This document shows, in pieces, positions 20,702-33,377 of a stretch of DNA of 38,349 bases; position 1 is the stretch's first letter, and each line of letters starts with the position of its first letter. Source of the DNA: Haloplasmataceae bacterium (GTDB lineage: Bacteria > Bacillota_I > Bacilli_A > Haloplasmatales > Haloplasmataceae). The stretch covers positions 1 through 38,349 of the forward strand of contig JARDZP010000019.1 of NCBI GenBank assembly GCA_029240795.1, given 5' to 3'. The translations under genes were made by a program, and so were the position numbers. Under the pieces are notes generated by a model. The model searched no databases, was not told the DNA's origin, and saw only the letters and a list, made by a program, of their open reading frames with translations.

Positions 20702-20874
20702 CTTATTTCCTCTACTATTTCTATAAATTATTACTATTATTTTATCCTTAATTATTTGATTATATCATTAATAAACTTATATTTATATAAATAAAAAAAT
20801 TCTTTCTTAAACGAAAGAACTTTAATTTTTTTCTTCTTATTAATTTACTTTAAGATAGGGAGTTATTTAATAAT

Positions 20875-21168
20875 ATGTAGAATGCTAAATATTTTTCTCA
20901 TGTAAAACAATTACAACAAGAACAAATGAAACAGTAGAAAATAGTAAACATTTTCAACATTAAAATTCGAATTTGTGATTTTTTTGGTGATAAACCAGTC
21001 AAACTATCAGGAAATGGAAATAAAGATTAGACCCTGTTTTTTCCTGAAGGTGGATTCATGATGGTCATGAAAACGAAGGACAACGAAAATGGTCTTAATT
21101 TTAAAAAAGAGTATGCAAAGCTGGCTGGAATCATTGCCATGTTAATCGATGAAACAACAACAAGTTAA
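20875..21168 (+). pseudogene. unrecognised gene relic with three in-frame TAG codons
   Basis: From an ATG at 20875 a single frame stays protein-like for 97 codons to a TAA at 21166. It is interrupted by TAG at 20878, 20935 and 21028 and by no other stop. The best stretches are FFGDKPVKLSGNGNKD and LNFKKEYAKLAGIIAMLIDE. A GGGAG sequence lies about 14 bases before the ATG. It fills the gap between the pseudouridine synthase and the first DUF5667-like gene and converges on the latter. No family is recognised. Decay by nonsense mutation is the simplest reading, since TAG ends several intact genes here. Confidence 0.4.
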
Positions 21169-21206
21169 TGAATTTAATGTAACAAAAATGATTAAGTCGT
21201 TATTTC

Positions 21207-21968
21207 TTAATTTATATCAATATATTCTAATAATTTTACTTTTAAATCAGTAATTGATAAGCCTAACGATTCTAATAATAAACTTAAGTTTACAACTTTC
21301 TCATCATTTATTGTAACTACATGATCAATTAATAATAATTCATCTACAGTTTTTGAAGTAATTGCACTAATTACATGTAATTTTAATAAATCACTATAAC
21401 CATACCCTTGATCATGTAATGTACTTACTGAATCGATATCTGTAAATCTTGTGAATAGTGACATTTTCGCACTATTTAAATCTTTAAGTACGCAGTCTTT
21501 TACCTCATAAGATATTTTTGCCTTTGCTTTTTCATTTACTTTTGTTATCTTACCTTCTGCCATATTTACTCTTGCTTCAAGTTTAGCTAATCTTTCATCA
21601 CTTATTCTTCCTTCAACTAATAATTTTTGTAGACAAATATTTGCCCGTTCTAAACTTAACCCGTATTCAATAAATAATTTATTTGCATAAGATGCCACTA
21701 TTTTCGGATCTAATATATCTAATTCAGCCAATCTTTTTTCTGCGATTTTAGCTAGTTTTTCAGCTTTCCTTTCTTTACTAAATGTAAATTTTAAATTAAG
21801 CTTTTCTAAGAATTTATCTATACTGTATAAAGCATTCCCTGGAATTAAACCTGCATTAGGTAATTCATCTGAATCTATTACAACTTTATTTATTGTATCA
21901 GTCGCACCCACACTTAATCCAAATGATAGAAAGGTTAACATTAAAGCTGATATTATAAACATTTTCAT
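21207..21968 (-). CDS. secreted DUF5667-like protein, paralogue 1 (divergent, no charged tail)
   Basis: From the ATG at 21968 (GGAGG eight bases upstream) the product is 253 residues. It begins with a signal peptide (MKMFIISALMLTFLSFGLSV, cut near GATD). The conserved block runs from DELPNAGLIPGNALYSIDKF through a KAEKLAKIAEKRLAEL helix, as in DUF5667. It lacks the highly charged C-terminal tail of its two upstream paralogues and has diverged further. A longer frame to 22094 exists but would place the signal sequence internally. Two TCACA repeats 11 bp apart lie upstream. The molecular function of the family is unknown. Confidence 0.8.
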   Translation of the reverse strand: MKMFIISALMLTFLSFGLSVGATDTINKVVIDSDELPNAGLIPGNALYSIDKFLEKLNLKFTFSKERKAEKLAKIAEKRLAELDILDPKIVASYANKLFIEYGLSLERANICLQKLLVEGRISDERLAKLEARVNMAEGKITKVNEKAKAKISYEVKDCVLKDLNSAKMSLFTRFTDIDSVSTLHDQGYGYSDLLKLHVISAITSKTVDELLLIDHVVTINDEKVVNLSLLLESLGLSITDLKVKLLEYIDIN

Positions 21969-22011
21969 ATTATAATCCTCCATCCTACAATAACTTATTG
22001 TACTAAATAAT

Positions 22012-22027
22012 TGTGAGTGATATGTGA
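22012..22027 (-). promoter_or_regulatory. 11-bp-spaced operator repeats upstream of DUF5667-like gene 1
   Basis: Two TCACA cores (plus-strand TGTGA at 22012 and 22023) lie exactly 11 bp apart, 44-59 bp before the start codon. The same motif occurs four times before each of the other two paralogues. Confidence 0.6.
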
Positions 22028-22051
22028 TGATTAAAATCTCTATATATATGT

Positions 22052-22082
22052 AAAAAAAGCAGAAATAAATCCTGCTTTTTTT
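22052..22082. terminator. terminator after DUF5667-like gene 2
   Basis: GCAG and CTGC pair within an A-run/T-run frame (AAAAAAAGCAG...CTGCTTTTTT), about 13 bp past the stop. It is nearly the same sequence as the terminator at 23091, so it was copied with the gene. The stem is shorter than in that copy. Confidence 0.7.
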
Positions 22083-22094
22083 ACAATATATCAA

Positions 22095-22970
22095 TTATTT
22101 TTCTTTTTTTTCGTTAATTTTTTCTTTTACTTCTTCGCGTCTTTCATCTGCTTGTTTTTGTGCCTCATCCATTTTAGTTTTCATCGTTTCTTTTAATAAA
22201 CCTTTATATTCTGTTAATTTAGTTTTTAAATCATCTCTAGTTAATTCTAATGTTTCTAATAAAACATCAAAGTTAATTGCTTTTTCATTTTCTTCATCTG
22301 TAGTAACTACATTTTCCACTAATAATAATTCATCAATTGTTTTTGAAGATAATTCTGCGATGGCTTGTAATTTTAGTAACTCTCCATAACCATAACCTTC
22401 ATCATGTAATGTATTCATTGCTTCTTTATCAGTAAATCTTGTGAATATTGACATTTTAGCATTCTTTATTGCTTCATTTACACTTTCTTTTACTTCGTCA
22501 GAGATTTTTTCTTTTGCTTTTTCATTAACTTTATCTTGACGTTCTTCAGCTTTTGCCACTTTCGCTTCAAGTTTAGCTAATTTTTCTTCACTAATTTTAC
22601 CTTCAGCTGCTAATTTTTGAACATATAAATTAGCCTTTTCTAGACTTAAACCATATTCATTAAATAATTCATCAGCATAAATTGCTGCTTTTTCAGGATC
22701 TAATTCATTAAGTTCAGCTAATCTTTCTTCAGCTACTTTAGCAAGTTTTTCAGCTCTTTTTTCATCACTGAATGTTAATTTTAATGCGATATTTTCAAAG
22801 AATTTATCTACACCATAGAATGTATCCCCTGGAGTTAAACCAGCATCAGGTAATTCATCTGTAGTTTCAATAACTTCTTCATTCGTAGTAGCAACAGTTG
22901 CACCTACACTAAAACCAGATGTTAATAACACAACAAACATAAATCCAAATAAAACAAATATTTTTTTCAT
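22095..22970 (-). CDS. secreted DUF5667-like protein, paralogue 2
   Basis: The 291-residue protein has a signal peptide (about residues 1-24, ending FSVGA). DELPDAGLTPGDTFYGVDKF follows, with several amphipathic, Glu/Lys/Ala-rich helices (EKRAEKLAKVAEERLAEL and a coiled-coil-like segment near 115-160). The last ~35 residues are a highly charged tail (KQADERREEVKEKINEKKEK). It should be exported and probably helical, at the surface or outside the cell. It is very close in sequence to paralogue 3. Four 11-bp-spaced repeats precede it and a terminator follows, so it is its own transcription unit. Its function is unknown. Confidence 0.88.
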   Translation of the reverse strand: MKKIFVLFGFMFVVLLTSGFSVGATVATTNEEVIETTDELPDAGLTPGDTFYGVDKFFENIALKLTFSDEKRAEKLAKVAEERLAELNELDPEKAAIYADELFNEYGLSLEKANLYVQKLAAEGKISEEKLAKLEAKVAKAEERQDKVNEKAKEKISDEVKESVNEAIKNAKMSIFTRFTDKEAMNTLHDEGYGYGELLKLQAIAELSSKTIDELLLVENVVTTDEENEKAINFDVLLETLELTRDDLKTKLTEYKGLLKETMKTKMDEAQKQADERREEVKEKINEKKEK

Positions 22971-23017
22971 TTTAAATTCCTCCTATTTCTTTTTACACTT
23001 TTATTATATTTTTTCAT

Positions 23018-23055
23018 TGTGATTATTTTGTGAGAGTTGTATGAGAGATATGTGA
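23018..23055 (-). promoter_or_regulatory. four 11-bp-spaced operator repeats upstream of DUF5667-like gene 2
   Basis: On the plus strand the cores TGTGA, TGTGA, TATGA and TGTGA start at 23018, 23029, 23040 and 23051, in exact 11-bp steps (minus-strand consensus near TCTCACAAAAT). They lie 48-85 bp before the start, next to a TATAAT-like -10. The arrangement is that of OmpR/PhoB-type response-regulator boxes. Confidence 0.75.
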
Positions 23056-23090
23056 AGTATTAAAATTATTATATTTTAACTACAAAATGA

Positions 23091-23121
23091 AAAAAAGGCA
23101 GGAATAAATCCTGCTTTTTTT
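23091..23121. terminator. terminator after DUF5667-like gene 3
   Basis: GCAGGA pairs with TCCTGC around ATAAA, flanked by an A-run and a T-run, so it can act in both directions. It ends 13 bp before the stop codon position of the gene it serves. Confidence 0.82.
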
Positions 23122-23133
23122 ACAATATATCAA

Positions 23134-24021
23134 TTATTTTTCTCTTTTTTCGTTAACTTTATCAGTAATTTTTTCTTTTACTTCTTCGCGTCTTTCATCT
23201 GCTTGTTTTTGTGCCTCATCCATTTTAGTTTTCATTGTTTCTTTAGCATTATCTTTATATTCTGTTAATGTTGTTTTTAAATCTTCTCTAGTTAATTCTA
23301 ATGATTCTAATAAAACATCGAAGTTAATTGTTTTTTCATTTTCTTCATTTGTAGTAACTACATTTTCCATTAATAATAATTCATTAATTGTTTTTGAAGA
23401 TAATTCTGCGATGGCTTGTAATTTTAATAACTCTCCATAACCATAACCTTCATCATGTAATGTATTCATTGCTTCTTTATCAGTAAATCTTGTGAATATT
23501 GACATTTTAGCATTCTTTAATGATTCATTTACATTATCTCTTACTTCATCAGAGATTTTTTCTTTTGCTTTTTCATTTACTTTATTTTGACGTTCTTCAG
23601 CTTTAACTACTTTTGCTTCAAGTTTAGCTAATTTTTCTTCACTAATTTTACCTTCAGATACTAATTTTTGAACATATAAATTAGCTTTCTCTAGACTTAA
23701 ACCATATTCATTAAATAATTCATCAGCATATATCGCTGCTTTTTCAGGATCTAATTCATTAAGTTCAGCTAATCTTTCTTCAGCTACTTTAGCAAGTTTT
23801 TCAGCTCTTTTTTCATCACTGAATGTTAGCTTTAATGCGACGTTTTCAAAGAATTTATCTACTCCATAGAATGTATCCCCTGGAGTTAAACCAGCATCAG
23901 GTAATTCATCAGTAGTTTCTGTAACTTCTTCATTCGTAGTAGTAACAGTTGCACCTACACTAAAACCAGATGTTAATAACACAACAAACATAAATCCAAA
24001 TAAAACAAATATTTTTTTCAT
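23134..24021 (-). CDS. secreted DUF5667-like protein, paralogue 3
   Basis: The 295-residue protein is nearly a duplicate of paralogue 2. It has the same signal peptide (MKKIFVLFGFMFVVLLTSGF), the same DELPDAGLTPGDTFYGVDKF block and the same helical body. Its charged tail has a four-residue insertion (EKITDKVNEKREK). Differences are mostly conservative, which suggests recent duplication with both copies still under selection. TTGGAGG precedes the ATG. Four 11-bp repeats lie 49-86 bp upstream. Its function is unknown. Confidence 0.88.
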   Translation of the reverse strand: MKKIFVLFGFMFVVLLTSGFSVGATVTTTNEEVTETTDELPDAGLTPGDTFYGVDKFFENVALKLTFSDEKRAEKLAKVAEERLAELNELDPEKAAIYADELFNEYGLSLEKANLYVQKLVSEGKISEEKLAKLEAKVVKAEERQNKVNEKAKEKISDEVRDNVNESLKNAKMSIFTRFTDKEAMNTLHDEGYGYGELLKLQAIAELSSKTINELLLMENVVTTNEENEKTINFDVLLESLELTREDLKTTLTEYKDNAKETMKTKMDEAQKQADERREEVKEKITDKVNEKREK

Positions 24022-24069
24022 TAATTATTTCCTCCAATTTCTATTTATATTCATATTGTAGTGCCCAAT

Positions 24070-24107
24070 TGTGATTAAATTGTGATAATTATATGATAAT
24101 TGTGTGA
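24070..24107 (-). promoter_or_regulatory. four 11-bp-spaced operator repeats upstream of DUF5667-like gene 3
   Basis: On the plus strand TGTGA, TGTGA, TATGA and TGTGA start at 24070, 24081, 24092 and 24103, exactly 11 bp apart. The minus strand reads as four tandem units close to TATCACAATTT. The third unit is the weak one (TATGA), as upstream of gene 2. No other signal is seen in the rest of the 358-bp gap up to 24379 apart from an AT-rich promoter-like TATAAT at 24301. Confidence 0.8.
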
Positions 24108-24379
24108 AATATAAAAAAGATTGAATAAATATCTTTTTATTTTCATAAACAATAACATAAAATATGTCTAAACTTACTTTTAAATATGCATAAGAATATT
24201 ATATCACTTTTCTTTACTTTATAACTCGTGTTCATGTTAAATAGCATTTTCTTTTATGAAAACTTGTTTAAAAATAAATAATTATTAATCTTGTTTATGA
24301 TATAATTAATTGAAAATTATAATTAAAAGAATTAAATCCAATTAATATATAACAACAAAAATACAAAGGAGAAAATCAT

Positions 24380-32395: not shown

Positions 32396-32472
<77 letters not shown>

Positions 32473-33300: not shown

Positions 33301-33377
<77 letters not shown>

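Follow-up and report, generated by a model that had tools for sequence, protein, structure and literature searches.

The stretch of DNA analysed here (the window) comprises the 38,349 nt of contig JARDZP010000019.1 (assembly GCA_029240795.1) from a Haloplasmataceae bacterium. It carries three paralogous genes for secreted DUF5667 proteins, each preceded by TCACA cores repeated in 11-bp steps, and this work concerns the promoter type formed by these repeats and the regulatory system to which they probably belong. The initial annotation had called the genes DUF5667-like; PF18915 matches above the gathering score were found in all three, as well as in two further genes of the same genome. The coding strand of the three genes is the minus strand, on which TGTGA and TATGA of the plus strand read TCACA and TCATA, respectively. 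The genes, their putative operators and −10 boxes are the following:

23134-24021, minus strand: gene 3, secreted DUF5667 protein of 295 aa (PF18915, 2.8e-18)
24070-24107, minus strand: putative four-unit operator of gene 3 (TCACA, TCATA, TCACA, TCACA in 11-bp steps)
24055-24060, minus strand: −10 box TACAAT of gene 3, 9 nt after the last core
22095-22970, minus strand: gene 2, secreted DUF5667 protein of 291 aa (PF18915, 7.6e-21)
23018-23055, minus strand: putative four-unit operator of gene 2 (TCACA, TCATA, TCACA, TCACA)
23003-23008, minus strand: −10 box TATAAT of gene 2, 9 nt after the last core
21207-21968, minus strand: gene 1, secreted DUF5667 protein of 253 aa from the ATG at 21968 (PF18915, 4.1e-16)
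22012-22027, minus strand: putative two-unit operator of gene 1 (TCACA-N6-TCACA)
21997-22002, minus strand: −10 box TACAAT of gene 1, 9 nt after the last core

All ten TCACA-type cores were found exactly where the initial annotation had placed them, with TGTGA on the plus strand at 22012, 22023, 23018, 23029, 23051, 24070, 24081 and 24103. The weak variant which it had described as common to both four-copy sites is also there, being TCATA in the second unit from the upstream end (TATGA on the plus strand at 23040 and 24092). The similar spacing to the start codons held as well, although the distances from the last core to the ATG (48 bases for gene 3, 47 for gene 2 and 43 for gene 1) are each one bp shorter than had been noted, owing to the counting convention. 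To gauge chance, the 160 nt upstream of each gene were shuffled 5000 times with dinucleotide composition preserved. Three or four phased units arose in 0/5000 shuffles for genes 2 and 3, and the two phased units of gene 1 in 10/5000. Over the whole window, TCACA-N6-TCACA with at most one mismatch was observed 10 times against 2.6 expected, and none of 100 shuffles reached 10. With a CDS identity of 94.7%, genes 2 and 3 are near duplicates, so their arrays are not fully independent evidence. In the alignment of these two arrays, identity is 20/20 in the cores and 9/18 in the spacers (hypergeometric p ~3e-4 by our own arithmetic); cores that were kept while the spacers drifted point to selection on the cores. 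Judged from sequence, the 11-bp repeats are real and lie far beyond chance, and they are very probably operators shared by these genes.

An element which had been missed previously is the −10 hexamer located exactly 9 nt past the last core in 3/3 window promoters. The composite promoter can be written as TCACA-N6-TCACA-N9-TANNNT, with the repeat standing in the position of the −35 box. In an alignment of 26 promoters from five genomes, TCACA occupies positions 0-4 and 11-15 and a TATAAT-like box begins at position 25; A is preferred just before the second core, and both cores point toward the gene in 26/26 sites. The set was gathered by motif and the conservation of the cores is partly by construction, which does not apply to the −10 box at those sites that were found without it in the pattern. 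The predicted operator in the −35 position is the layout of an activator binding at −35.

The genome of the window (G000; 2.67 Mb, 85.6% complete, 181 contigs) was searched by pattern. Exact TCACA-N6-TCACA sites numbered 14, against 3 for the reversed control pattern, and seven exact sites include a −10 box at 9 nt. If the pattern were scattered at random over the genome, as the initial annotation had asked to be checked, it would not be expected at promoters; 9/14 exact sites are intergenic and promoter-placed, so the arrays are not random. These nine precede the three window genes, a gene for a 639-aa DUF5667 protein on contig C12, a DUF5667 gene on C126, an HtrA-type lipoprotein protease on C48 and an orphan lipoprotein on C80, and the remaining two lie on C43 without an open reading frame. 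There are exactly five DUF5667 genes in G000, and the array stands before 5/5. The proposed regulon of three secreted paralogues thus holds for all three but is wider, as it also takes in the HtrA-type protease, the lipoprotein and three candidate small-RNA genes. Matches inside genes (C43:47300, C43:50850 in metK, C82 and C171) were set aside as chance. The match on C131 (L052 2460-2560) lies within a TTGTCACAA repeat cluster of another kind, which resembles iterons and was not taken as a regulon operator.

A dedicated two-component system had been postulated, with its regulator outside the window. An OmpR/PhoB-family regulator and a kinase are indeed encoded on contig C126, in one operon with the array-preceded DUF5667 gene found there:

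C126 12553-13449, minus strand: DUF5667 gene, first of the operon, behind the array
C126 11891-12556, minus strand: OmpR-family response regulator, overlapping the DUF5667 gene
C126 10455-11891, minus strand: HAMP-HisKA-HATPase kinase, adjoining the regulator

The regulator has the receiver (PF00072, 1e-26) and Trans_reg_C (PF00486, 4.6e-27) domains of the OmpR/PhoB family, and its partner kinase has HAMP, HisKA and HATPase domains. Among the CpxR, BaeR, PhoB and WalR/YycF models of NCBIfam, the regulator stays below every named cut-off; PhoB scored best (191.9 bits; cut-off 296.2), and YycF and CpxR gave 173.7 (cut-off 340) and 123.8 (cut-off 341), respectively. The recognition helix R-TVDTH-[IV]-KQLR is conserved across five regulator orthologues. 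Four other OmpR-family regulators are encoded in G000 (on C18, C43, C74 and C180), and among the exact matches the array occurs at one regulator operon only, that of C126. A DUF5667 gene next to regulator genes recalls cpxP.

The comparison with DUF5667 promoters of related genomes, which had been suggested as a check, showed that the array is kept upstream of the orthologues. Exact composite sites number 7 in G000, 3 in G001, 2 in G003, 2 in G005 and 4 in G006; none was found in G002, G004 and G007. Orthologues of the regulator (55-66% identity) occur only in G001, G003, G005 and G006, which are the other genomes of the family with DUF5667, whereas G002, G004 and G007 have no DUF5667 and only paralogues of the C126 regulator (42-43% identity). 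DUF5667, the regulator orthologue and the exact composite sites are thus found together in five genomes and are all absent from three. The order array, DUF5667 gene, regulator gene recurs in G001, G003 and G006 (the beginning of the kinase gene being read, among these three, in G001 only), and in G005 the array directly precedes the regulator and kinase genes. The array with 9-nt spacing to the −10 box stands before 12/12 DUF5667 genes of the family in the five genomes. The weakest, at the long gene of G006, has a score reached by 24/1500 shuffles. Four-unit arrays precede the C12 gene, like window genes 2 and 3; reading by eye added the C2 gene of G005 and the long genes of G001 and G006, with some units mismatched. 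Before the gene of the orphan lipoprotein (LAFS-YLASG ... ELDEVNIYF-KLK-FM), the array is present in 5/5 positive genomes, in some with one mismatch, and before that of the HtrA-type lipoprotein protease it is present in G000 and G005, which represent two genera.

In G005, several one-mismatch arrays were also seen at C13:24400-33500 (L151) before candidate genes for CcdA-like, Lgt-like and His/Met-rich small proteins (named by sequence inspection), and the regulon may extend to these in that genus. The DUF5667 genes of another family (G021 and G009) are without the array. In G021, TCACA pairs lie before the gene of a small secreted protein, which is oriented divergently to an OmpR-type regulator gene (C1:2077365, L086), and a three-unit array precedes a lipoprotein gene (C1:1380912, L073); both may represent an earlier version of this circuit.

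The C43 sites belong to three tandem units on the minus strand (C43:2179-2640; L050 2640-2179), adjoining an mscS-like gene. Each unit consists of an array, a −10 box, about 95-107 nt, a CU-rich stretch complementary to the Shine-Dalgarno sequence (CUCUCCUC, UCCCUUUCCUC and CUCCCUCUCUC) and a terminator; an open frame as long as 10 codons is absent from all three. The three units may encode RNAs that pair with ribosome-binding sites. Units of an array and a terminator without an open reading frame directly behind the promoter also occur at G005 C10:8582 and G003 C74:68498. The G005 unit (L144 560-780) is a CCC-rich candidate small RNA gene that has a strong terminator some 200 nt further along and is situated just upstream of a DUF5667 gene.

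No paper on DUF5667, a domain of unknown function, was found in the open-access literature searched. The AlphaFold model of the three window paralogues is all-helical and of low confidence (pLDDT 47), and Pfam assigns the window proteins to DUF5667 and not to the LTXXQ (CpxP/Spy) family. Some DUF5667 proteins have long charged tails. Profile matches to helical or designed-repeat proteins of the PDB were disregarded as compositional. The HtrA-type protein of G000 contains Trypsin_2 (8.8e-28), and its counterpart in G005 contains Trypsin_2 and PDZ_2.

We propose, with a probability of roughly 85%, that the arrays are operators of one OmpR/PhoB-type regulator, encoded in the C126 operon of DUF5667, regulator and HAMP kinase genes, and that it drives a regulon of the envelope-stress type. 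The predicted operator and its regulator are strongly assigned. The promoter type is shared by every DUF5667 gene of the family and by the regulator's own operon and is absent from the genomes without the regulator. Activation, the stress signal and the function of the RNAs are what we infer beyond this. The phosphorylated C126 regulator would bind the TCACA repeats as a head-to-tail dimer, a two-unit array accepting one dimer and a four-unit array two, and would replace the missing −35 contact and activate transcription. Levels of the DUF5667 proteins, the HtrA-type protease, the lipoprotein and the three small RNAs would rise, with positive autoregulation through the array at the C126 operon. 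The signal would be extracytoplasmic (envelope or secretion) stress; an HtrA-type protease, secreted helical proteins, a lipoprotein, csRNA-like RNAs and the system's own operon fit such a stress as in CiaRH, LisRK-LhrC and CssRS/Cpx. The DUF5667 proteins may be helical extracytoplasmic chaperone-like or feedback factors, following the logic of Cpx/CpxP, and the small RNAs may dampen the synthesis of other exported proteins, following that of CiaR csRNAs or LhrC.

The closest operator is that of Mycobacterium tuberculosis PhoP, a structurally solved relative that binds TCACAGC-N4-TCACAGC as a head-to-tail tandem dimer and has a higher affinity for three and four repeats than for two (PMC4832192). 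The TCACA core, the head-to-tail orientation, the 11-bp period and an OmpR-family regulator are common to both, whereas the GC after the core is not conserved in the present arrays, and the genome type and targets differ. The CiaRH operator of Streptococcus, TTTAAG-N5-TTTAAG, has an 11-bp period and lies 10 nt before the −10 box; under CiaRH control are htrA and several small RNAs that carry terminators and stretches complementary to the Shine-Dalgarno sequence (PMC3091779). An 11-bp direct repeat, an htrA-type putative target and terminator-ended candidate small RNA genes are found here as well, which is a likeness of gene arrangement. The core in the 26 aligned promoters is TCACA and not TTTAAG, the targets here include DUF5667 and the orphan lipoprotein, and no orthology of the regulators is claimed. 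Listeria LisRK is an envelope-stress system that drives the multicopy sRNA LhrC with CU-rich (UCCC) motifs; the LisR-responsive element lies at −53 to −75, with no consensus defined (PMC4132741). The system described here would similarly join a two-component system to a candidate multicopy CU-rich RNA family, but the LisR element is located further upstream and the C43 RNAs are unrelated to LhrC by Rfam. Two-component control of HtrA/DegP-type proteases, as proposed here, is a feature of CssRS, described as homologous to CpxAR (PMC12802291), and of CpxAR itself, although no named NCBIfam model scores above its cut-off for the C126 regulator. The likeness of DUF5667 to CpxP/Spy is one of regulatory logic, not of demonstrated sequence or fold kinship.

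Several observations weigh against the proposed regulon. The PhoP residues that contact bases (Asn212, Val213, Glu215, Ser216, Tyr217 and Tyr220) are Arg, Thr, Asp, Thr, His and Gln in the alignment with the C126 regulator; as they are not kept, the match of the cores is an analogy. With G000 being 85.6% complete, a further regulator could be missing. No PDZ domain was found in the HtrA-type protein of G000. In the C43 units the array is separated from the −10 box by 11 nt instead of 9, and the third of these arrays contains one mismatch. The three C43 RNAs have no Rfam match, and a covariance model found no convincing homologue in seven relatives (best outside match E 0.38, partial).

The arrays might instead be bound by another OmpR-family regulator, WalR/YycF-like or PhoB/PhoP-like, of which the C126 operon would be merely one target. 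Candidates are at hand in the four further regulators on C18, C43, C74 and C180. WalR and PhoP, too, have direct-repeat operators of about 11 bp, and TGTGA, as the array reads on its other strand, resembles the WalR box TGTWAH. However, such paralogues (41-46% identity) are present also in G002, G004 and G007, where the exact composite sites are absent, and C126 is the sole regulator operon with an array among the exact matches, so we consider this improbable. The WalR-type version was rejected, as WalR boxes read TGTWAH on the coding strand, on which the array reads TCACA, and a W in fourth position does not allow the G present there. TCACA and TGTGA are also the half-sites of the CRP consensus (TGTGA-N6-TCACA), and AT-rich promoters might yield such repeats as a by-product; yet 26/26 aligned sites are direct, toward the gene and none inverted, shuffles almost never yield the array and the control genomes are without exact composite sites. 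As far as sequence can show, the CRP-type and by-product readings are refuted, and their probability is negligible.

That the regulon responds to a signal other than misfolding (such as metal or redox stress or cell-wall damage), with DUF5667 proteins as structural or binding rather than chaperone-like components, is on balance not likely. The C13 sites of G005 before candidate redox- or metal-linked genes and the long charged tails of some DUF5667 proteins would agree with it. At the one-mismatch level of the former, the reversed control pattern is itself matched 10 times in G005. Envelope or secretion stress agrees best with the array-preceded HtrA-type protease in two genera and with the csRNA-like genes. 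The three C43 units could also be decayed promoter-terminator repeats or functionless leaders, since they are AT-rich duplicates without conservation in relatives and their promoter spacing differs from that of the protein genes. This is unlikely, as array, −10 box, CU-rich stretch and terminator are kept in 3/3 diverged copies without a 10-codon frame, and array-plus-terminator units exist in G005 and G003 as well.

Under the preferred reading, a C126-encoded regulator acting on the TCACA arrays, DUF5667, a family of unknown function, obtains its first regulatory setting. Being linked almost perfectly to a single operator and a single two-component system, the family acquires a role in extracytoplasmic stress that is concrete and can be tested. 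We put at even odds that DUF5667 is the effector and feedback part of a previously undescribed extracytoplasmic stress system (DUF5667, regulator and kinase), which would combine an HtrA-type protease and tandem anti-Shine-Dalgarno RNAs under a PhoP-like TCACA operator, as a counterpart of Cpx/CpxP with a CiaR-like RNA arm. The design seen in this uncharacterised low-GC lineage (11-bp direct-repeat operator, HtrA and several candidate anti-Shine-Dalgarno RNAs) is also that of streptococci and Listeria; this suggests its recurrence with operator cores that differ.

Two further features of the window genes were read from the sequence:

23089-23114, minus strand: terminator-like hairpin 3' of gene 3, GCAGGATTTATTCCTGC followed by a T-run
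22052-22078, minus strand: terminator-like hairpin 3' of gene 2

With its own array before each gene and hairpins after genes 2 and 3, each gene looks like a separate transcription unit. Between gene 1 and a pseudouridine-synthase-like neighbour (20860-21170), broken remnants of reading frames look like a decayed gene. Elsewhere in the window, two tRNA matches of equal score (32396-32469 and 33301-33374) lie about 900 bp apart and possibly reflect a recent duplication.

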